Shown here: positions 15,454 to 64,000 of the stretch, one piece after another
Position numbering within the stretch: position 1 is the stretch's first letter
Layout: every line of letters begins with the position of its first letter
DNA from: Thalassorhabdomicrobium marinisediminis
GTDB lineage: Bacteria > Pseudomonadota > Alphaproteobacteria > Rhodobacterales > Rhodobacteraceae
Direction of reading: 5' to 3'
DNA length: 64,000 nt
Assembly: GCF_003072065.1 (NCBI RefSeq)
Contig: NZ_QCYG01000006.1
Location: forward strand, 248,001 to 312,000
Notes under the pieces: generated by a model
What the model saw: only the letters and a program-made list of their open reading frames with translations
Told to the model about the DNA's origin: nothing
The model's database searches: none
Made by a program: the position numbers and the translations under genes

Positions 15454-15595
15454 CCGCCCATCGACCAGCCTCGGATTCGTCCGGGGCTCGTCTTTTGTGG
15501 GGGAACCTGCATTTCAACCGGGCACCTACGGGGGCCTATCACATCAGGATCGGGGCGCATGCCTTCGGTCCGCCAAGCAAACGGAAGAAGCTAAC

Positions 15596-54918: not shown

Positions 54919-54995
54919 GGACCGATAGCTCAGCTGGATAGAGTACCTGACTACGAATCAGGGGGTCGGGGGTTCGAATCCTCCTCGGTCCGCCA
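54919..54995 (+). tRNA. tRNA-Arg (anticodon ACG)
   Basis: A 77-base cloverleaf. The acceptor arms are ggaccga and tcggtcc with G73 and an encoded CCA; the D arm is gctcagctggatagagt; the anticodon arm cctga-ctacgaa-tcagg places ACG at 34-36 (read as ICG); the T arm is ggggg-ttcgaat-cctcc with one G:T pair. It matches tRNA-Arg for CGU/CGC/CGA. It is the boundary between core genes and the accessory region, as tRNA-Arg genes often are for integrated elements. Confidence 0.97.
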
Positions 54996-55076: not shown

Positions 55077-57233
55077 TTATTTGCCGGATTGCTCGTAGGC
55101 CAGAAGTGAGCCAGGCGAGTTCAGCAGTTCATCGATTCTCATCATGTTCAATTCTCGCTTTACCAGCAAGGCTTCCGAAAGACGCACCAACATGCCTTTG
55201 TGTTCGGCCAGCAACTTCCGCGCCTGTGCTTCCGCCGCCTTCAAACGATGATTGATCACCTGCCGCCGCGTTTCGCTCAAGCTATGCCATTGGGACGTCG
55301 CCATCGGCGTGTAGATCAGGCTGCTCTCCCCAAGTCCCCACTGATATTCCTGCGCGATCAGTAGCGCTGTTGCGCGTTCCAGGTCGCTTTGCTGGCCGGA
55401 GCCAGACCCGGAGGAGATATCGCCGATCAGGAGCAGTTCTGCGGCGCGGCCCGCCATGAGGCAGACGAGTTCTGCTTTGATGATATCGGCGGTGTAGCTC
55501 GGTTGGGCAGGGCGCAAGACCTCGCCGCCGGTGGGGGTGATGCGAGCCCGAACGGGCAGGGGAATATCGAGGACAGCGGCGGCCACGATGTGCCCGGCCT
55601 CATGGGCAGCGATCCGGCGGAGATGCTTTGCGCAGACCGGCAGGGCGTGGTCTGCAACGGTCTGGTGCAGGTGATCCGCGGTCACGGATGTGCGCGCCCG
55701 TCGCGCGCGGGCCTTTGCGTCGCGGGCGATGTGGGCGAGGTCCGCGCCGGACTTGTCAAGAAGGCCGTTGATCGCGGAAGCCTCGATGGCGAACTCCGGG
55801 CCGAGGTGATGCGCCAGGATATCTCGGACACCGGACTTGTCCGGCAGCGGCACGGCGAGTGTCTGATCGAAGCGCCCCTCCCGCAGGATCGCCGGGTCGA
55901 TGTGGTCCAGGTGGTTCGTTGCGGCCACGACAATAACGCCCTCGGCCGCGTTCAGCCGGGTGAGCTCTTGCAGAAGGTCATTAATCACCGCTGTCATATA
56001 GCGGCTCAACTTCGAACCCGGATCGCGGGTTCGCGTGCCGAAGCTGTCGAGCTCGTCGAAGAAGATCACCGAAGGTGCGCGCGTCACGGCCTCGGCCACC
56101 ACGGCGGCCATCGCCTTCAGGTAGTCGCCGAGGTGGCCTGCCGCTTGCAGGTCGGTGTAGGACGTGGCGATGAAGTGCGCCCCCGCCGATCCGGCGAGCG
56201 CTTCGGCCAGCATGGTCTTGCCCGTGCCCGGTGGGCCATGCAGCAGGACGCTGGCGCTGACGTCCTCCCAGCGGACGCGGCCCGCCTTCCAGTCGGACAG
56301 GTCTGCGATGATATGCTGCAGACGCCCGCAGATATCGGGCAGGCCCTTCACGTCATCGAGTGTCAGGGGCGGATCGGAGGTAGCGAAGGTCGCTGTATGT
56401 TGCGCCAATCGATGCGCCACGGCCTGCGGCTTTGCCGCGCGGAAGGCGTGGCAGATCAGGCTTTCGGGCAGCGCTCGCAGTGCGGCCTCGGGCGGCAGAA
56501 GGAGGGCGATCTCGTCACGGTCCGCCGGCCCGGTTGCGCCGTGGGTCAATGCCACGAGATCAAGAACCATCGCAGTGGTCAGTTGCGACAGCGTAAACGA
56601 ACCTGTCAACACCGCGCGCGCGATGTCCGGGATCGCCTGGGCGCTGTCGCAAAGCAGCAGCGCGCTGTCTCCGTCCGCGATGGCTTGACTGACCTCAGTC
56701 TCGAAGCTGCGCTTCAGCTCGGCAGCAGATCGGCTGCGACCTCTGGGCGGAGAGGAACTGATCACCCGCAGGTCGTCAACGCCCACCCCTGCAAGCGCGG
56801 GGAGGGCGTGCAGCGCCTCGGTCAGATCGATGAACGTCTCCGAGACCCGCTCCAACCGCTGTGGCTCCGGGATGATTAAGACATGGACCGCCCCGGGTGC
56901 GGTGAGGCGCGCGACGGCGTCGGGGGAAGTGAAGACCTGCAACAGCTCGATCGCTGTCAACAGCGAGGGGAGGGGCAGGTAGCTCGGAAACGTGCCTTTT
57001 GCTGCTGGAATGGTGGCAGCAGGCATGCCACCCACCCTATTGGCGGGCACCGACATATCTGCCGTCGGAGATTTGCCCGTGTCGGGAGGTGGCAGGGGCC
57101 GAGGATCCGGCTCCCTCGGCGCGGGGCAGACCCCACCCGGGATGGCCCGGGCGATCACACGCTGCAGGACGTCTGCGGCGAAATCATCAGAGGTGGTGGA
57201 TGGGGACCAGTGGTTCGAAGGCGTCATGGGCAT
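55077..57233 (-). CDS. Soluble FtsH-like AAA+/M41 metalloprotease
   Basis: This 718-residue protein carries an AAA+ ATPase joined to an M41 peptidase, the FtsH layout. Walker A is GPPGTGKT (333-340), Walker B VIFFDELDS (Asp393-Glu394), and the second region of homology NHLDHIDPAILREGRFDQTL. The zinc motif is HEAGH (544-548) and the third ligand Asp617 lies in SGQQSDLERATAL. FtsH has two N-terminal membrane helices; none is seen here, but an unrelated N-terminal region of about 290 residues precedes the ATPase. It is therefore predicted to be a cytosolic ATP-dependent protease of unknown target. It is the last gene of a four-gene minus-strand unit next to a tRNA. Confidence 0.85.
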   Translation of the reverse strand: MPMTPSNHWSPSTTSDDFAADVLQRVIARAIPGGVCPAPREPDPRPLPPPDTGKSPTADMSVPANRVGGMPAATIPAAKGTFPSYLPLPSLLTAIELLQVFTSPDAVARLTAPGAVHVLIIPEPQRLERVSETFIDLTEALHALPALAGVGVDDLRVISSSPPRGRSRSAAELKRSFETEVSQAIADGDSALLLCDSAQAIPDIARAVLTGSFTLSQLTTAMVLDLVALTHGATGPADRDEIALLLPPEAALRALPESLICHAFRAAKPQAVAHRLAQHTATFATSDPPLTLDDVKGLPDICGRLQHIIADLSDWKAGRVRWEDVSASVLLHGPPGTGKTMLAEALAGSAGAHFIATSYTDLQAAGHLGDYLKAMAAVVAEAVTRAPSVIFFDELDSFGTRTRDPGSKLSRYMTAVINDLLQELTRLNAAEGVIVVAATNHLDHIDPAILREGRFDQTLAVPLPDKSGVRDILAHHLGPEFAIEASAINGLLDKSGADLAHIARDAKARARRARTSVTADHLHQTVADHALPVCAKHLRRIAAHEAGHIVAAAVLDIPLPVRARITPTGGEVLRPAQPSYTADIIKAELVCLMAGRAAELLLIGDISSGSGSGQQSDLERATALLIAQEYQWGLGESSLIYTPMATSQWHSLSETRRQVINHRLKAAEAQARKLLAEHKGMLVRLSEALLVKRELNMMRIDELLNSPGSLLAYEQSGK

Positions 57234-57278
57234 TCATCCAGTGCAAGGGTGTGGTGAAGGTGATGGGGGCCGACGCCA

Positions 57279-57875
57279 TCAGTCCGGCTCGAGGTCCGGT
57301 TCTTCAGGATCTGATGTCGTATCCTTTCTGGCCTCGGCTTCGATCTCGTCCATGAGAGACAGAAGGAACTCCAGGGCCTCGATCTCGTAGATTTCCGACT
57401 TGGTATTGATCTGGCCCGCGAACTCCTCGGGTGGCACGACCCACTCCGGGTGCTCTGTCCGCATGGTGCGGTGCGCGCGCTTCTCGGCCACCAAGGCGGC
57501 ATGCCCGGTCTTCATGTCGATGGCCCGCAAGACCTCGCCGGTGTCGCGCGCGGCGGGCCCCAACTGCTGGAGCAGCCGCCGCTCGGGATCGGAGCTGTGG
57601 CCCAGCTTGAGCACGGGCCGATCCACCAGTTCGATCCGGAAGAGATAGATGCGCGCCCCCCGGCCCAACAGCCGATAGCCCTTTTGCTTTGCGATCCTGT
57701 GCCAATGCGGCAGGATGGAGTCGTCTCGCGACGTCTCTTGCGCAGGGCGTGGTGCCCGATCCGCGGCACGGCGACTGCGCCGTTTGGGGCAGGGCGCGTC
57801 CCCCCGACGGAGGCTACGGAAAGGTAAGGGGAGGGCAGGACTCTTGGGCCCGCGGCTGCGAGGGGATGAAGACAT
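57279..57875 (-). CDS. GIY-YIG-like (T5orf172/MUG113-type) protein
   Basis: This is a protein of about 198 residues. A basic, Pro/Arg-rich first half (to about residue 65) is followed by a region resembling the GIY-YIG-related T5orf172/MUG113 fold: IYLFRIELVDRPVLKLGHSS, then DPERRLLQQLG, and later AEKRAHRTMRTEHPEWVVPPEEF. The pattern of Tyr, Lys-Leu-Gly, Arg and Glu matches that family's probable nuclease core, but activity is unproven. The ATG at 57875 (MSSSPRSRGPK) has an aaagga site; the frame is open to 57932. It lies 45 bases ahead of the FtsH-like gene and is probably cotranscribed. Confidence 0.6.
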   Translation of the reverse strand: MSSSPRSRGPKSPALPLPFRSLRRGDAPCPKRRSRRAADRAPRPAQETSRDDSILPHWHRIAKQKGYRLLGRGARIYLFRIELVDRPVLKLGHSSDPERRLLQQLGPAARDTGEVLRAIDMKTGHAALVAEKRAHRTMRTEHPEWVVPPEEFAGQINTKSEIYEIEALEFLLSLMDEIEAEARKDTTSDPEEPDLEPD

Positions 57876-57941
57876 GGTCTGTTCCTTTGGAAGATTGTGG
57901 GAAGGAAGGGGGTGACCGACACCGCCGGTCACGAGGGCAGG

Positions 57942-58388
57942 TCAGTGAAGCGGTTTGGCGGGCGGCACCCCGAAGCGGTGGGCCTGGATCTCGAGCAAGG
58001 TGTCGAGCAGGGTGAGGGCCTCCATCATCTGGCTGCGGCACAGCGTGCCGTCGGGCACTGCGTAAGCCGTGCGGCAGGCGAAGCGAAACACCTCAAGCAT
58101 GGTGTCGACCGTGCAGGTCTCCCAATCGAGCACCGTGAAGATCAGCTGCGCCATCTGGGCGCGGGGATCTGCCGGTTTCTCAGCAGACTGACCTCCATGA
58201 GATTGGGCAAAGCGAGACGCCTGCTGCTCCGCGAGCATCCAGATGAGCAGGCTTTCGTCCGACAAGACGGGCGGCGCATCAGGCGGTGTCAGATAGAACA
58301 AAGGCGTTTGCGCCTGAAGGGCAAGATCCAGTGCGGTGAGAACATGGGCAAAGGCGGTGGCGCGCGCAGGCGCGGGGGAATGGGTCAT
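57942..58388 (-). CDS. Hypothetical protein, accessory unit
   Basis: This is a 148-residue protein with no recognised domain. It is largely helical, with HVLTALDLALQAQTPLFYLT early, MLAEQQASRFAQ in the middle, and FACRTAYAVPDGTLCRSQMM near the end; the three cysteines are not arranged as a metal motif. No signal peptide or membrane helix is seen. The ATG at 58388 has a good ggagg site; the frame upstream to 58454 is ignored. It lies 66 bases before the GIY-YIG-like gene in the same unit. Confidence 0.6.
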   Translation of the reverse strand: MTHSPAPARATAFAHVLTALDLALQAQTPLFYLTPPDAPPVLSDESLLIWMLAEQQASRFAQSHGGQSAEKPADPRAQMAQLIFTVLDWETCTVDTMLEVFRFACRTAYAVPDGTLCRSQMMEALTLLDTLLEIQAHRFGVPPAKPLH

Positions 58389-58493
58389 GACGACCTCCGA
58401 GGACAATGAGGGAATGCGGGGGGTCTGGGGCCGCGGGCAACTCAATGGAGCCAACCCGCGACTGAGAGCAGGAGCGCAGGCTCGCTCGCGCGG

Positions 58494-58949
58494 TCAGTGC
58501 GACCGCGCGGCTGCCGCGACCGCGAATCCGGCGGGGCTGAACCGCGCGGTGTCGCCGAGAAGCAGATACATCAGCTCAGCGGTCCGGCCGAATTGCTCTG
58601 CACGTGGGTCCCATTCGTAGAAATCAGGAAACCGGGGCGTGCTCCAGCTCGCCATATCCAGCATGGTGTCGGCGACGGACTGATGGTGGTCCCGTTGCGC
58701 CTCATCCGTCTTGAGCAGCTGATACAGCGCATAGGCCAGCTCACCGAAAAAGTGATGCTGCGCCAAGGCGGTCTGGTGGAACCCGTCAAGCGTTTCCCGA
58801 AGCTGAGGCCAGGCCCGAAACGAAGGATCGGCGATGGCGGCTTCGATCATGCACAGAACGGCGTCGCGCTGGCCGGGGAGGGATTTGGCGTATCGGGCCG
58901 AACGCGTTTGAGCCGTCGGCAACACCGTGATATTGGAACCGGTAGTCAT
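58494..58949 (-). CDS. Hypothetical protein, first gene of accessory unit
   Basis: This 151-residue protein is not recognised. It is mostly helical, rich in Ala, Gln and His, with segments FHQTALAQHHFFGELAYALY and TPRFPDFYEWDPRAEQFGRT. The ATG at 58949 (MTTGSNITVLP) is chosen because an aaggaga site lies eight bases upstream; five codons further up is another ATG (58964). It is the promoter-proximal gene of the minus-strand unit and faces the ribbon-helix-helix gene across a palindrome. Confidence 0.6.
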   Translation of the reverse strand: MTTGSNITVLPTAQTRSARYAKSLPGQRDAVLCMIEAAIADPSFRAWPQLRETLDGFHQTALAQHHFFGELAYALYQLLKTDEAQRDHHQSVADTMLDMASWSTPRFPDFYEWDPRAEQFGRTAELMYLLLGDTARFSPAGFAVAAAARSH

Positions 58950-59019
58950 AGGGATCTCCTTCATAGATCGCTGTGGTTAGGGTGGGGTGTGAGTTGCCGC
59001 TCACGTCCCATCCGCACTG

Positions 59020-59045
59020 TTGCGATATCGATATCGATATCGCAA
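59020..59045. promoter_or_regulatory. 26-bp perfect palindrome (candidate operator)
   Basis: The half-site ttgcgatatcgat (59020-59032) is followed by its exact reverse complement (59033-59045). The centre is three tandem gatatc units. It lies in the divergent intergenic region between the accessory unit (start 58949) and the ribbon-helix-helix gene (start 59147). Ribbon-helix-helix proteins bind tandem short inverted sites of this kind. Confidence 0.7.
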
Positions 59046-59146
59046 TCATTATTTTGCAAGGCAGTGCATTTTTCTTCTGGATGCGGATGCGAAGGGGAGA
59101 GACGGGTGCTACGCATGTGAAGCTTGATGCTCGGAGGAAGATGAAG

Positions 59147-59329
59147 ATGGCGCCCCCCAAACGAGATACCACCGGTGTCCTGGTGCGACTGCATGCCAAC
59201 ACGCTGAACGGGTTGGACGATATGATTGCCAAAGCTGGTAAGGACTGGTCGCGGCCAGAAATGATACGCCGAATATTAAAGGAACGGCTCACCGAAGAGG
59301 GCTACGACGTTCGAGAGTGGGTCGATTAA
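59147..59329 (+). CDS. Small ribbon-helix-helix DNA-binding protein
   Basis: This 60-residue protein has the ribbon-helix-helix pattern: a basic strand (TTGVLVRLHANTLNGLDD) followed by two helices (MIAKAGKDWSRPEMIRRILK). It fits a CopG/Arc-type repressor that dimerises and binds short inverted repeats. The ATG at 59147 is chosen because a ggagg site lies nine bases before it; the ATG at 59141 is too close to the site. It is divergent from the four-gene accessory unit with the palindrome between, so it probably controls that unit and itself. Confidence 0.7.
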   Translation: MAPPKRDTTGVLVRLHANTLNGLDDMIAKAGKDWSRPEMIRRILKERLTEEGYDVREWVD

Positions 59330-60014: not shown

Positions 60015-61232
60015 TTACAAATTGCCATTTCTTCGCTGGTATTTAATGTAGTCTGTTACTGTAAATGCCGCTGCAAAGAAAAGAGGATTTGAAAGCATGT
60101 GGCTCGCCGATACTTGAGCATCCGAAATAATAAATAAGCTATACATGATCAAGGTATTCATCGCGACGGAGCCACGAACTTCATTACGAAAATAGGAACT
60201 CAAGTAACGGTAAGTCATGATCAAGTAACGAATGACTGCGAGATAAAAGAGCCCGGTCAATAGAATCCCTCCTTTAAGTAACAGGTAGAAGAACAAAAAG
60301 TGAATGTAGCGTACCGTAGAAAGTGATTGATGAGTACTTAAAATTGCAACGTCGAGTGAAGATGTCATATCGATCGATGCCCCGAAACCGAACCCGAACA
60401 GAGCAGATATGACTCCTCCCTCCCGAATCTGATCCAAGACTTGATTGGCTTCAAAAATACGTTGAGCGGACGACATATCGAATGTTCGACTCTGCCAATT
60501 CAACTGCGAGAAAAATAGGTTTAGCTTCCTGTACAAGCCAGTTTCAAAAATTAAGTCTGGCGCGAACAGAAAAACAGTCAAGCCAATAGCGGCAGTGAGT
60601 GCAGAGAACTTCCAAAAACTACGTTTCCTTAAAAAGGACATTCTAAGGGTGAAGAGCAGAATAAACATGACTGAAAGAAAAACGCTCTTCCCATAAAGCG
60701 ACGAAAACACCGCCGCCCCTGCCAGGAGATAGAGAGCGGATTTCTCAATAGTACGACGGCTTATCGCTCCTGACATAAGTAAAAAAAGAAGCAGAAATCC
60801 AGCATATGAAAATTGTAACTTAACACCGATTGCCACGGTAATTGCTGAAATGATCGCGACAGGCCACAGCCATGACGTGACTACCTCAGAGCTTCTATCG
60901 GGCCGAGGTCGAGTGATGAAGACCAGTAGAATGAAGAAAGCCTGCATCGCCTCCGTAAGAATGAACGATGCGCTATTGCCGTTAACAATTGCTAAAAGAA
61001 ACAGTAGAACACAGAGGAAACCGAAGGGCGCGACCCTCGCGATGTCAGATGTTCGTATTGGGATCCGGTAAACAATAAGGAGAAGGACGACGGCGCCAAC
61101 GAAAAGAAATCCGACTCTTTTTGAGTAATTGTCCACGATAAAGATATTGTTGGACGAGAGGAAGATCATGCCTACGAGCGAGCTTGAGATCAAGAATGCA
61201 AGAAGTAGGATTCCTTGGGCGTGTAGCTTCAT
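60015..61232 (-). CDS. Wzy-like polysaccharide polymerase/O-antigen ligase-type membrane protein
   Basis: This 405-residue protein has about ten to twelve hydrophobic segments. A large loop lies between residues 230 and 290 (LNLFFSQLNWQSRTFDMSSA), as in Wzy polymerases. There is no strong sequence motif in this family, so the call rests on topology, length and the surrounding glycan genes. It would polymerise or ligate repeat units in the inner membrane or periplasm. The composition is AT-rich. It overlaps the CDP-alcohol transferase by four bases. Confidence 0.6.
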   Translation of the reverse strand: MKLHAQGILLLAFLISSSLVGMIFLSSNNIFIVDNYSKRVGFLFVGAVVLLLIVYRIPIRTSDIARVAPFGFLCVLLFLLAIVNGNSASFILTEAMQAFFILLVFITRPRPDRSSEVVTSWLWPVAIISAITVAIGVKLQFSYAGFLLLFLLMSGAISRRTIEKSALYLLAGAAVFSSLYGKSVFLSVMFILLFTLRMSFLRKRSFWKFSALTAAIGLTVFLFAPDLIFETGLYRKLNLFFSQLNWQSRTFDMSSAQRIFEANQVLDQIREGGVISALFGFGFGASIDMTSSLDVAILSTHQSLSTVRYIHFLFFYLLLKGGILLTGLFYLAVIRYLIMTYRYLSSYFRNEVRGSVAMNTLIMYSLFIISDAQVSASHMLSNPLFFAAAFTVTDYIKYQRRNGNL

Positions 61233-61957
61233 CGCGTTGAGAGCCAGTAACGTTGTTGCATTGCAATACGGGCGAGCAACATGACAACAGCGAATGCGGC
61301 CGTGTAAGCGAAGAATCCAAGTACGGGAGAGATGACAAATAATATAATTAGAATCTCAACGAGTGTTACGGGTGAGCTAACGACGCCATACCTTGCTCTC
61401 CACTGCTGATAGCGGTTGCCTTCCTCTGGACCAGGATCTGTGGCTCGTACAGGGTGCCATCTGCGAATCGATTCAATGTCGCCGCTCTTTGCAAAATTTT
61501 GTATTTCATGAACTTGGATATTATATCGGCTCTCGAAGCCAAAGAGAAATAAAAATACGAGCAATGAGGCGGCAAAGATTGCGATATCGCTGCTGAGCTG
61601 TGAATAACATAATGCGACCGCAACGCTACTGAACACTATTCGATCAACCGCAATATCCAACCACGCGCCGTATTCTGATCGAAGCCCCTTCAGCCGTGCC
61701 AGCTTTCCATCAATCGCGTCAAGCGTATAGCTAATTAAATAAAGCAATGCGCCCAAGACGATGTAACCAACTGCATAGGACCATGCAGACATAAGGCCGG
61801 CGAACAGTGACAGAATGGTTAGGTGGTTTGGTGTGAGGTTGGTATGATTAGCGACGAATCGTGTAGTCGGGATGGTCACATACTTCAACACGAAGATATT
61901 GAACCACGGTTCGTTCCCGTGAAAACACCGCGAGACTTGTTGTTCTGTAAATTTCAT
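61229..61957 (-). CDS. CDP-alcohol phosphatidyltransferase-family protein
   Basis: This 242-residue membrane enzyme carries the complete CDP-OH-P motif D-x2-D-G-x2-A-R-x8-G-x3-D-x3-D, with Asp80, Asp83, Gly84, Ala87, Arg88, Gly97, Asp101 and Asp105. It transfers a phospho-alcohol from a CDP-activated donor to an acceptor. Because a TagD-like cytidylyltransferase lies 1.2 kb away in the same cluster, its role is probably in a phospho-alditol-containing glycan rather than bulk phospholipid synthesis; this is an inference. It overlaps the Wzx-like gene by four bases. Confidence 0.85.
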   Translation of the reverse strand: MKFTEQQVSRCFHGNEPWFNIFVLKYVTIPTTRFVANHTNLTPNHLTILSLFAGLMSAWSYAVGYIVLGALLYLISYTLDAIDGKLARLKGLRSEYGAWLDIAVDRIVFSSVAVALCYSQLSSDIAIFAASLLVFLFLFGFESRYNIQVHEIQNFAKSGDIESIRRWHPVRATDPGPEEGNRYQQWRARYGVVSSPVTLVEILIILFVISPVLGFFAYTAAFAVVMLLARIAMQQRYWLSTR

Positions 61958-63189
61958 AGTGAGGTGCCTACCGGTTTAGTTCGCGTAGCGATCGCGAAAT
62001 AGAGGACATTTAGGAGAATGTGTACCGTTATCGTGGAATAAATAACGCCATACACGCCTTTGTGAGGGATAAGAATCAGGTTCATTGTGACTCCAACTAC
62101 GATTGCCGCACCCATCGCAGCGAGACGTTTGAAGAAAAATCCTTCAAGAAGAATGCGAATGCCGATAGGCGCCCCAATGAATCTCAAGACAATTAAGGGC
62201 AACAGGAGAACGACATACTGCTTTGAGTTTGTGTGGTCTCCCGAAAACAACACGTCAATAACGAATCCACTCAGCAAGTATGTCATCCCGGCGAATATCA
62301 AGGATAGGCACAGCATAACGACCATCGAATTTCGGAACGTTTGCAAATAGCCTGTGCGATCCTGTTTATACTGTTGTGACATGCGAGGAAGCATTAAATG
62401 ATTGAATATCTCAGGTGCGATCATCGTTAGTAATACGATACGGAATGCAAGCTGATACTCTCCAACATCACCATAGCCCAAGTAAATTTGAATAAGAAAT
62501 AGGTCGATATATAGATAGGCAAAGGAAAAAATTGTGACGCCGGAAATTGGGATAAGATCGAGCATAGTTCTCCTGAATTGCTCAACCGGCTGCCCGGTTT
62601 GATCCCCGACGCCATTATCCATCAAGAAATATAGAGTCGAATAAGATAGGCTAAATAGGCGGGCGACGAGTATCGCAGTTGAGAGCGTGTTTATATTGGC
62701 TCGGTCAATTGCGTATAGCGAGGCTATCAGTAGGAGAAGAGAAGCATTGCCGATGGTTACGCCATAAGATTCTACTTTGTAGTTTCGGAAGGATCGGTAA
62801 TAAGATGCTATAAACAGGAAAAATGACTGCGCTATTGCACTTAGGCAAAGAACGCTGAATACAAAGGTGGATTCGGGATAGAAAAGTAGTATGACGCCCA
62901 TCACCAACAGACTAGTGCCTATGGTAGCAAGTATCTTAATGCGCAAGAGCGTCATGACGAGGTTCTTCGGTGGCCGAGCTCCGTAACTCGCAATGATGAT
63001 TTTCTGGTTTATCCCAAACTCTGAGGCGATCAGGGTAAACTGAGCCAGAATAAGTCCAAGGGACAATTTCCCAAAGTCCGATATAGAAATCAAGTTTACG
63101 CAGATCAAGATGGCTGCAGGAAATACAAAAAATTTCTGCGTTTGAATGATTATTACATTCAGAGTGTCATTGGATTTTGAGTCTCTCAA
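61954..63189 (-). CDS. Wzx-like polysaccharide flippase (MATE/MOP superfamily)
   Basis: This 411-residue protein has about twelve hydrophobic segments in the pattern of the MOP superfamily of lipid-linked oligosaccharide flippases. Regions include ILICVNLISISDFGKLSLG at the start, FRNYKVESYGVTIGN in the middle, and a repeated six-helix layout. It would move undecaprenyl-linked repeat units across the inner membrane for the Wzy-like polymerase. It is AT-rich like its neighbours, and the TagD-like gene lies four bases upstream of it. Confidence 0.75.
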   Translation of the reverse strand: MRDSKSNDTLNVIIIQTQKFFVFPAAILICVNLISISDFGKLSLGLILAQFTLIASEFGINQKIIIASYGARPPKNLVMTLLRIKILATIGTSLLVMGVILLFYPESTFVFSVLCLSAIAQSFFLFIASYYRSFRNYKVESYGVTIGNASLLLLIASLYAIDRANINTLSTAILVARLFSLSYSTLYFLMDNGVGDQTGQPVEQFRRTMLDLIPISGVTIFSFAYLYIDLFLIQIYLGYGDVGEYQLAFRIVLLTMIAPEIFNHLMLPRMSQQYKQDRTGYLQTFRNSMVVMLCLSLIFAGMTYLLSGFVIDVLFSGDHTNSKQYVVLLLPLIVLRFIGAPIGIRILLEGFFFKRLAAMGAAIVVGVTMNLILIPHKGVYGVIYSTITVHILLNVLYFAIATRTKPVGTSL

Positions 63190-63193
63190 AACC

Positions 63194-63610
63194 TCATTCC
63201 GTTCTCAAGTTTTCAAGCGTCTTGTTGATCAGCGTTGAGGAAGTTTTGTTTGTGTATGGGAAATAGATCACCTTGACATGCCGATCCGCCAGTTGCGTCT
63301 CGACCGAGTCCCACTTATCGGTTTTGTACCAATCATCACCTACAAACATTATGTCGAACTTGTAGCGATCATGCGCGTCAAGCTTGTCCATTGTCTCTTG
63401 TGGAACAACCAGATCTACGTGTTTACAGTTCGCAACAACTTCTTTTCGATCTTCAAAGGTGATGACAGGCTGTTTGTTCTTATACCAAACGAGCTCGTCG
63501 GTGGAGACACCAACGATAAGTTTGTCACACATTGCCTTCGCGTTCCGGAGCAGCCTGACATGTCCGACATGAAAGAGATCAAAAACTCCTGTTGTATACC
63601 CAATTACCAT
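63194..63610 (-). CDS. Glycerol-3-phosphate cytidylyltransferase-like protein
   Basis: This 138-residue nucleotidyltransferase is of the TagD/GCT type. The HxGH motif is in VFDLFHVGHVRLL (His14, His17); the later segment NKTSSTLI occupies the place of the RTEGISTT signature. TagD makes CDP-glycerol for teichoic acids; small relatives use other alditol phosphates. Here it probably supplies a CDP-alditol to the CDP-alcohol transferase in the cluster. The start overlaps the end of the next gene by seven bases. Confidence 0.8.
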   Translation of the reverse strand: MVIGYTTGVFDLFHVGHVRLLRNAKAMCDKLIVGVSTDELVWYKNKQPVITFEDRKEVVANCKHVDLVVPQETMDKLDAHDRYKFDIMFVGDDWYKTDKWDSVETQLADRHVKVIYFPYTNKTSSTLINKTLENLRTE

Positions 63611-64000
63611 TCTAGTACCTCTAAGTTCAATTTTTGAAAGTATTTATACTCGTTTATCTTGTTCACACCCCCAAATGTCGCGCTGAATCCAATTTTCTTC
63701 CGCTCAATAGCTCCGTGCAGGCCGAGTCTTTCGCAATACTTGCGAAGGGGTATTTTTGATTCGGTTGCAGATATTTTCAGTGCTGCGGGGCGTCGGTATA
63801 GATAATCTGCGAGTGAACTATAAACGAATGGGACACGCGCTTCTTTCGAAGCCGCCATGGATGCAAAATCCATCCGCCGGAGAAGTCCAGGTAAGTGGAA
63901 ATCCCAGAAGAAGTCCTCAACAAACTCATTCGTTGTTTTGCCGGCCTTCAGTCGCACGATATACTCTATAAAGCGTTCTGTTGGAGCCACGTCTTCGGAG
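63604..64000 (-). CDS. Asparagine synthetase-like protein (C-terminal part)
   Basis: The last 132 residues are visible, and the frame is open to base 64000, so the gene is cut by the right edge. The segment FASMAASKEARVPFVYSSLA matches the conserved (R/D)xxSMAxSxExRxPF region of asparagine synthetase (glutamine-hydrolysing type), followed by SKIPLRKYCERLGL and RKKIGFSATFGG. Asn-synthetase homologues in polysaccharide clusters often transfer amido groups to sugars rather than make asparagine; the acceptor here is unknown. Confidence 0.75.
   Translation of the reverse strand, partial: SEDVAPTERFIEYIVRLKAGKTTNEFVEDFFWDFHLPGLLRRMDFASMAASKEARVPFVYSSLADYLYRRPAALKISATESKIPLRKYCERLGLHGAIERKKIGFSATFGGVNKINEYKYFQKLNLEVLEW

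Follow-up and report, generated by a model that had tools for sequence, protein, structure and literature searches.

A nuclease-protease cassette of Rhodobacterales islands and plasmids with a putative repressor and a predicted antisense RNA

What could be the role of a soluble FtsH-like protease that is encoded next to a nuclease, facing a tRNA gene and opposite a small regulator gene of its own? The question is raised by positions 55077-59329 of a 64,000-nucleotide stretch of the Thalassorhabdomicrobium marinisediminis genome (contig NZ_QCYG01000006.1, positions 248,001 to 312,000), hereafter the window. A sequence-only reading of this DNA had described the genes as a candidate cassette with a composition typical of mobile or defence loci. 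Comparison with other Rhodobacterales establishes, at the level of sequence, the gene set, the gene order, the exchange of nucleases, the mobile setting and the structure of a predicted RNA. We propose that the cassette is a self-contained, normally silent conflict module of integrative mobilizable islands and plasmids of this order, a reading to which we give an even chance. The original description held as regards the gene set; overlooked at that stage were the antisense RNA, the swapping between nuclease types, the islands at tRNA ends and further copies in the same genome.

The usual order of the cassette is a divergent ribbon-helix-helix (RHH) gene, a gene for a helical protein, here called U, a nuclease gene and the FtsH-like protease gene. 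Six Rhodobacterales plasmids encode a small protein, a nuclease and an AAA protease in one common order; three of their nucleases are of the GIY-YIG type and three are PD-(D/E)XK-like, and the RHH gene is annotated in three of the plasmids and detected by a profile in five. A profile made from eight proteases, run against 390 genomes of the order, found a cassette-type protease in 67 (above 320 bits, counted from the listing; ordinary FtsH scores near 255 bits over the AAA-protease part). At least 30 loci, almost all Rhodobacterales by title, came from a search of genome contigs with two short GIY peptide patterns, which gives a lower bound. Among 40 stretches anchored on the protease, a nuclease gene adjoins in 34 (one broken) and an RHH gene is present in 28. 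This recurrence rules out a chance cluster, and the genes do travel together, as the idea of a cassette demands. The alternative of a prophage relic was also rejected: 233 viral-contig stretches matched the GIY patterns and none encoded a relative, the protease not having been searched there.

The window protease matches the Pfam families AAA (7.8e-31) and Peptidase_M41 (3.6e-12), and its Walker A, HEAGH and SDL motifs are all intact. FtsH structures are the best matches of its structure model (mean predicted local distance difference test score 80.8; top E 3.1e-23), in which an extra alpha/beta region precedes approximately residue 290. By simple hydropathy the highest 19-residue Kyte-Doolittle mean, located inside the peptidase part, is only 1.52, and the protein is for this reason considered to have no clear membrane segment, in agreement with the FtsH-like protease without membrane anchors claimed earlier. 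For comparison, 15 of 66 homologues of the cassette protease reach a mean of 1.6, and of two FtsH-type loci in the same genome L016 reaches 2.72 and L015, whose reading frame is tentative, only 1.39. The cassette protease shares with FtsH the two domains, the active-site motifs and the fold, but differs in the missing clear membrane segment, in the extra N-terminal region and in its score against the NCBIfam FtsH equivalog, 162.8 bits, far under the cut-off of 600.

The nuclease slot is occupied by two types of enzyme. On its own, the window protein has no GIY-YIG match in Pfam and matches an endonuclease family of PHROG (phrog_681, E 6.7e-4); it is assigned to the GIY-YIG type because it can be aligned with longer homologues. 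In alignment with these, from the plasmids and from a second copy in the same genome (copy B, below), it corresponds to their C-terminal domain and does not contain their array of cysteine pairs (zinc ribbons). Ten columns are invariant across 33 aligned GIY-type proteins, the window protein among them; of these 33, T5orf172 is matched by 13 and MUG113 by 12 (E up to 1). The GIY-YIG-like protein of the sequence-only reading is thus upheld by way of its longer homologues, as a shortened form that escapes the Pfam models. Since its nuclease lacks the zinc ribbons, the window copy may be decaying and weakened. In the second type, PD-(D/E)XK, PDDEXK_5 is matched by 9 of 12 members (best E 1.7e-5), the first member falling just under the cut-off, and the sole PDB match is 2OST (E 0.24), a homing endonuclease. 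A tree of 62 proteases, from which L109, L130, L140 and L143 were left out as second or near-identical copies, has 44 tips with GIY, 12 with PD-(D/E)XK and 6 without nuclease; GIY counts that include L044-L073 are biased, these loci having come from the GIY search. Nuclease type switches six times on this tree, at least four switches being forced by well-supported branches, compared to a mean of 11 in shuffles, and it is therefore inherited, yet exchanged. The PDDEXK_5 and 2OST matches, together with the presence of copies beside three tRNA genes in a single genome, might suggest a homing-like use, in which the nuclease cuts target DNA, for instance tRNA ends, and repair spreads the cassette. 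Such use would leave the protease, U and the RNA unexplained and fits poorly with the integrase-type genes owned by islands with tRNA-end repeats; we hold it to be very improbable.

The start of the operon yielded a further component. Scoring of inverted repeats in the gap between the RHH gene and U gave a poor result (only 6 of 44 loci with none of 60 shuffles as high, the window gap being taken too short owing to a long RHH open reading frame), and leaders of U were therefore aligned, 23 of 28 stretches entering the alignment. Most leaders have in common a stem, a linker near CTAACCACAACGATCT and a small hairpin that covers the Shine-Dalgarno sequence; of 51 leaders tested for the linker, 31 passed, L131 and L133 among these at the wrong place. 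Stem stability favours the RHH strand in 23 of 23 leaders (mean -26.3 versus -18.0 kcal/mol on the U strand). Transition mismatches amount to G.U pairs in 62 cases on the RHH strand versus 4 on the U strand. Both kinds of transition carry equal weight in this count, whose nominal p is too small because the sequences are related. Since G.U pairs of the antisense strand are A.C mismatches on the U strand, the antisense strand is preferred and a stem working in the U message was set aside. RNAalifold gave 3 pairs on the U-strand alignment (A5). For the opposite-strand alignment (A6) we assigned the structure ourselves and tested covariation on that stem: 82.9% of cells are paired, both sides vary in 9 of the 14 pairs, and the covariation score is higher than in any of 500 shuffles and in every slide; a measure of both-sided pair changes was equalled by 33 of 500 shuffles. 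Twenty of 23 leaders carry TGNTA, part of a promoter-like signal for the RNA, on the antisense strand at one fixed distance from the U start codon, 1000 shuffles reaching 3 at most, and this motif is kept although the residues of U at that place differ.

A covariance model built on this structure detected the RNA in 66 of 82 sources, some near-copies included (E up to 0.01), and in 43 of 59 outside the training set. Among whole genomes it was found in 18 of 24 with the cassette (13 of 19 after removal of the five that had trained the model) and in none of 24 without it. Twenty-five of the 29 whole-genome hits lie at a cassette-type protease, and six inspected hits, including the four away from listed proteases, all adjoin RHH and nuclease genes. 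We predict here a conserved, new antisense RNA on the RHH strand over the ribosome-binding site of U. Rfam was searched once the stem had been assigned, and in the window the models SymR (37.8 bits, E 6.4e-6, threshold 61) and FinP (30.5 bits, E 2.5e-4) match at the position of the predicted RNA and on its strand (the + strand of the stretch); a search of four loci at curated Rfam thresholds returned tRNAs only. One match of our model, L071:4965-5023, falls 3' of the protease gene, away from the operon start.

A second level of control may be exerted by the RHH protein, whose window representative matches Pfam RHH_1 with E 0.01 only, under the cut-off. The palindrome between the two transcription units occurs once in the window, against never in 100 shuffles, and has one site only in the genome, up to 3 mismatches being allowed. 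It falls in the region where relatives carry the operon promoter and GAYRTC hexamers; of 27 leaders, 12 have GAYRTC there, versus 1.1 expected from shuffles, and 14 show a sigma-70-like operon promoter. The palindrome is a candidate operator of the RHH protein, which may also bind the hexamers. The structure model of U is all-helical, and no PDB entry matches it at E 0.001 or below. In the window u4 stands in the place held by U in other cassettes, and relatives of u4 were found in 1 of 101 genomes searched, namely its own.

As to genomic setting, of 48 loci with enough flank (L044 and L140 sharing one contig), 15 have a tRNA gene no more than 3.5 kb downstream of the protease, the 3' end facing in 14 of them, and one has a tRNA gene within the 5.5 kb upstream. 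Such a facing 3' end seems, from sequence comparison, to be the usual site of the island end in relatives. Repeats of the tRNA 3' end were found in five of eight islands (45, 45, 46, 16 and 16 nucleotides; islands of about 18-45 kb), and attachment (att) repeats were not found for G275, G186 and G178a. Island G345 has a 46-nucleotide repeat and a relaxase (Pfam 3e-11), G215 a 45-nucleotide repeat and an integrase (Pfam 5.4e-18). For G178b both integrase and relaxase were named by reading only, as were the integrase of G345 and the relaxase of G215; neither of the two relaxases so named has a Pfam match. Taken together, the islands of relatives present the tRNA-end repeats, integrase and relaxase that characterize integrative mobilizable elements, and three islands examined in detail contain type I restriction genes, AbiD/Abi_2, AIPR, TIR and C5 methylase genes (PADLOC, Pfam). 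At the window copy, three integrase-like queries matched nothing nearby, and none of the 10 same-genus loci (of 11) with usable flank beyond the tRNA matches the window there. On the RHH side, the clusters c7, c10 and c15, a small helix-turn-helix gene and a LuxR-like gene recur as neighbours at L046, L049, L055-L057 and L105, a hint of a shared island backbone.

The fixed position at the tRNA end, with recombinases alongside in several islands, the mobility genes within islands and the FinP-like antisense logic would also suit an establishment or transfer module, which is briefly expressed in a new host without repressor and RNA and removes host defences or controls excision or transfer. The recombinase beside the same cassette can be of the serine or the tyrosine type, though, and unrelated genes flank it on the six plasmids examined, so that we consider this role rather unlikely.

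Searches of the own genome and comparison of fetched stretches revealed, besides the window copy, five further copies or remnants, B to F. Copy B (C19) comprises RHH, u4, u3, a 375-residue GIY protein and a protease cut to its first 222 residues. Copies C (C4) and D (C31) have internal deletions and adjoin tRNA-Ser(GCT) and tRNA-Ser(TGA); copy E (C3) is a protease fragment. Copy F (C5) is a complete divergent cassette followed by a 740-residue recombinase-like protein (Phage_integrase E 2.5e-4, under the cut-off), and its nuclease is 98% identical to that of Sulfitobacter contig L052, which suggests recent transfer. DNA identity between the window copy and the others ends just before u4, at 58982 (B, C) or 58969 (D), and divergence between copies is much greater in the RHH genes; the regulator end therefore seems to have been exchanged. 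The ratio of nonsynonymous to synonymous substitution rates between the window copy (A) and B is 0.28-0.53 in four genes. A segment of about 1.2 kb, 94% identical between the two sites and containing a sugar-kinase-like gene, is found left of copy C (L007:6750-7946) and, reversed, right of copy D (L006), suggesting rearrangement between both tRNA-Ser loci.

These decaying copies bear on the possibility of an addiction module, in which the RNA and the RHH protein are short-lived antitoxins and, after island loss, leftover message makes U or nuclease and kills or stalls the cell, by the logic of type I toxin-antitoxin systems. The antisense RNA over the first gene does resemble SymR, an antitoxin RNA, and the cassette is carried by mobile islands and plasmids. 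Yet copies B-E indicate that piecemeal loss is possible, although relatives in the cell could protect, and U matches no known toxin fold; addiction is in our view improbable.

Neither PADLOC (2023 library) nor NCBIfam returned a system matching the cassette, literature searches gave no description in which we recognised this gene set, and the sequence-only reading had likewise failed to name it. PADLOC yielded only AAA-type partial matches to the protease and none for the other four window proteins. IetAS consists of an AAA ATPase with a separate partner protease; the IetA model of PADLOC matches the AAA part of the cassette protease (best E 5e-24), but the match is confined to this region and the M41 protease of the cassette is in the same chain. 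With the plasmid RNAs FinP (matching the window) and R1162 (matching L117) the predicted RNA shares two hairpins, a length of about 75 nucleotides and an antisense position over a start site; it differs in that the matches are sub-threshold, that of R1162 lying on the U strand, and that its targets would be U, nuclease and protease. The Escherichia coli toxin SymE is held down by the LexA repressor, the antisense RNA SymR and the Lon protease, and SymE-family genes sit in mobile islands alongside restriction genes, RHH regulators accompanying some of them (PMC1891008). The cassette is similar in its repressor-type gene, predicted antisense RNA with similarity to SymR, protease and restriction genes of the islands, and different in that its operon brings its own protease and nuclease and its SymR match is sub-threshold. 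No family of the AbrB-fold SymE toxin was found among the five window proteins (Pfam, NCBIfam, PADLOC), and in the absence of a SymE-type protein the cassette is not classed as SymE/SymR. The phage-defence protein SNIPE (PMC13190303) likewise has a GIY-YIG nuclease, combined there with a membrane segment and DUF4041, neither of which was seen in the cassette nucleases (Pfam).

For the cassette as a whole we infer a function in defence, addiction or establishment, and use in conflict with phages or rival elements appears the likeliest. In the conflict module that we propose, the RHH protein would bind its operator in the operon promoter and limit transcription, and the antisense RNA would pair with the U leader and block translation of U and hence of nuclease and protease. 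The protease would remove U, the nuclease or an invader protein. Both locks would fail upon invasion by a phage or element, upon island loss, or when the element enters a cell that has neither repressor nor RNA; nuclease would then be made and cut nucleic acid. We see slightly less than an even chance that this represents a new class of mobile conflict systems, with an exchangeable nuclease, its own soluble FtsH-type protease, an adaptor U and silencing at two levels (RHH repressor and SymR/FinP-like RNA), which mobilizable islands of Rhodobacterales carry as a standard module at their tRNA end.

Several observations weigh against the proposal. As many as 33 of 48 loci have no tRNA inside 3.5 kb downstream, and the constant place at one island end could mark island backbone and not defence cargo. 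No RHH gene was detected in 12 and no nuclease gene in 6 of the 40 stretches, and 6 of 24 genomes with the cassette gave no match to the RNA. Every Rfam antisense match lies under its curated threshold; L117 has no SymR or FinP match, and the R1162 plasmid model matched its U strand. No sigma-70-like operon promoter was seen in 13 of the 27 leaders, that of the window included. By sequence u3 and u4 are at best candidate relatives of U. The far att end of the window copy was looked for and not found, and with no integrase match there either, the mobile or defence cassette of the sequence-only reading draws its support from relatives in mobile, defence-rich islands.

If the proposal is true, a DNA-binding repressor and an antisense RNA jointly restrain a nuclease-protease pair whose nuclease is swapped between unrelated folds. 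The RNA signal, the operator and the two active sites provide handles for tests, and for learning how islands of a large environmental order meet phages, rivals and their own loss. The cassette also offers a soluble FtsH-like protease with natural partners among which a substrate can be sought.

The features of the window locus are collected in Table 1. The four minus-strand genes have the gaps of 45-105 bases given by the sequence-only reading once ATG starts are used, and its tRNA-Arg neighbour, divergent 60-residue RHH gene and perfect palindrome were all recovered (open reading frames, tRNA scan). The tRNA and the stop codon of the ftsH-like gene are separated by 82 bp.

Table 1. Features of the cassette locus (window positions; ORF, open reading frame; aa, amino acids)
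Feature	Position	Strand	Description
tRNA-Arg(ACG)	54919-54995	+	3' end faces 3' end of ftsH-like gene
ftsH-like gene	55077-57233	-	718 aa; soluble FtsH-like AAA + M41 zinc protease with extra N-terminal alpha/beta region
nuclease gene	57279-57932	-	217 aa; ATG option 57875; GIY-YIG-type domain, shortened, without zinc-ribbon array
u3	57942-58454	-	170 aa; ATG option 58388; relative seen only in copy B
u4, first operon gene	58494-58964 (ORF)	-	156 aa; 151 aa from 58949, the start conserved in relatives
promoter-like signal of antisense RNA	58905-58933	+	putative; CGTTTG, 17 nt, TGATAT; within u4
predicted antisense RNA	58944-59016	+	about 73 nt, two hairpins; covers u4 start and ribosome-binding site
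small hairpin at u4 Shine-Dalgarno	58953-58969	-	GATCT...AGATC
perfect palindrome	59020-59045	none	26 bp; candidate RHH operator
divergent RHH gene	59147-59329	+	60 aa from ATG 59147; ORF, Pfam, RHH profile of relatives

To the right of the cassette (window 60015-63990), G+C content drops from about 0.65 to about 0.44 across minus-strand genes, which by reading only resemble genes of polysaccharide export or synthesis (membrane polymerase-, CDP-alcohol transferase-, flippase- and cytidylyltransferase-like). Elsewhere in the window, positions 15520-15593 match the Rfam L2-Alphaproteobacteria ribosomal protein leader over its threshold.

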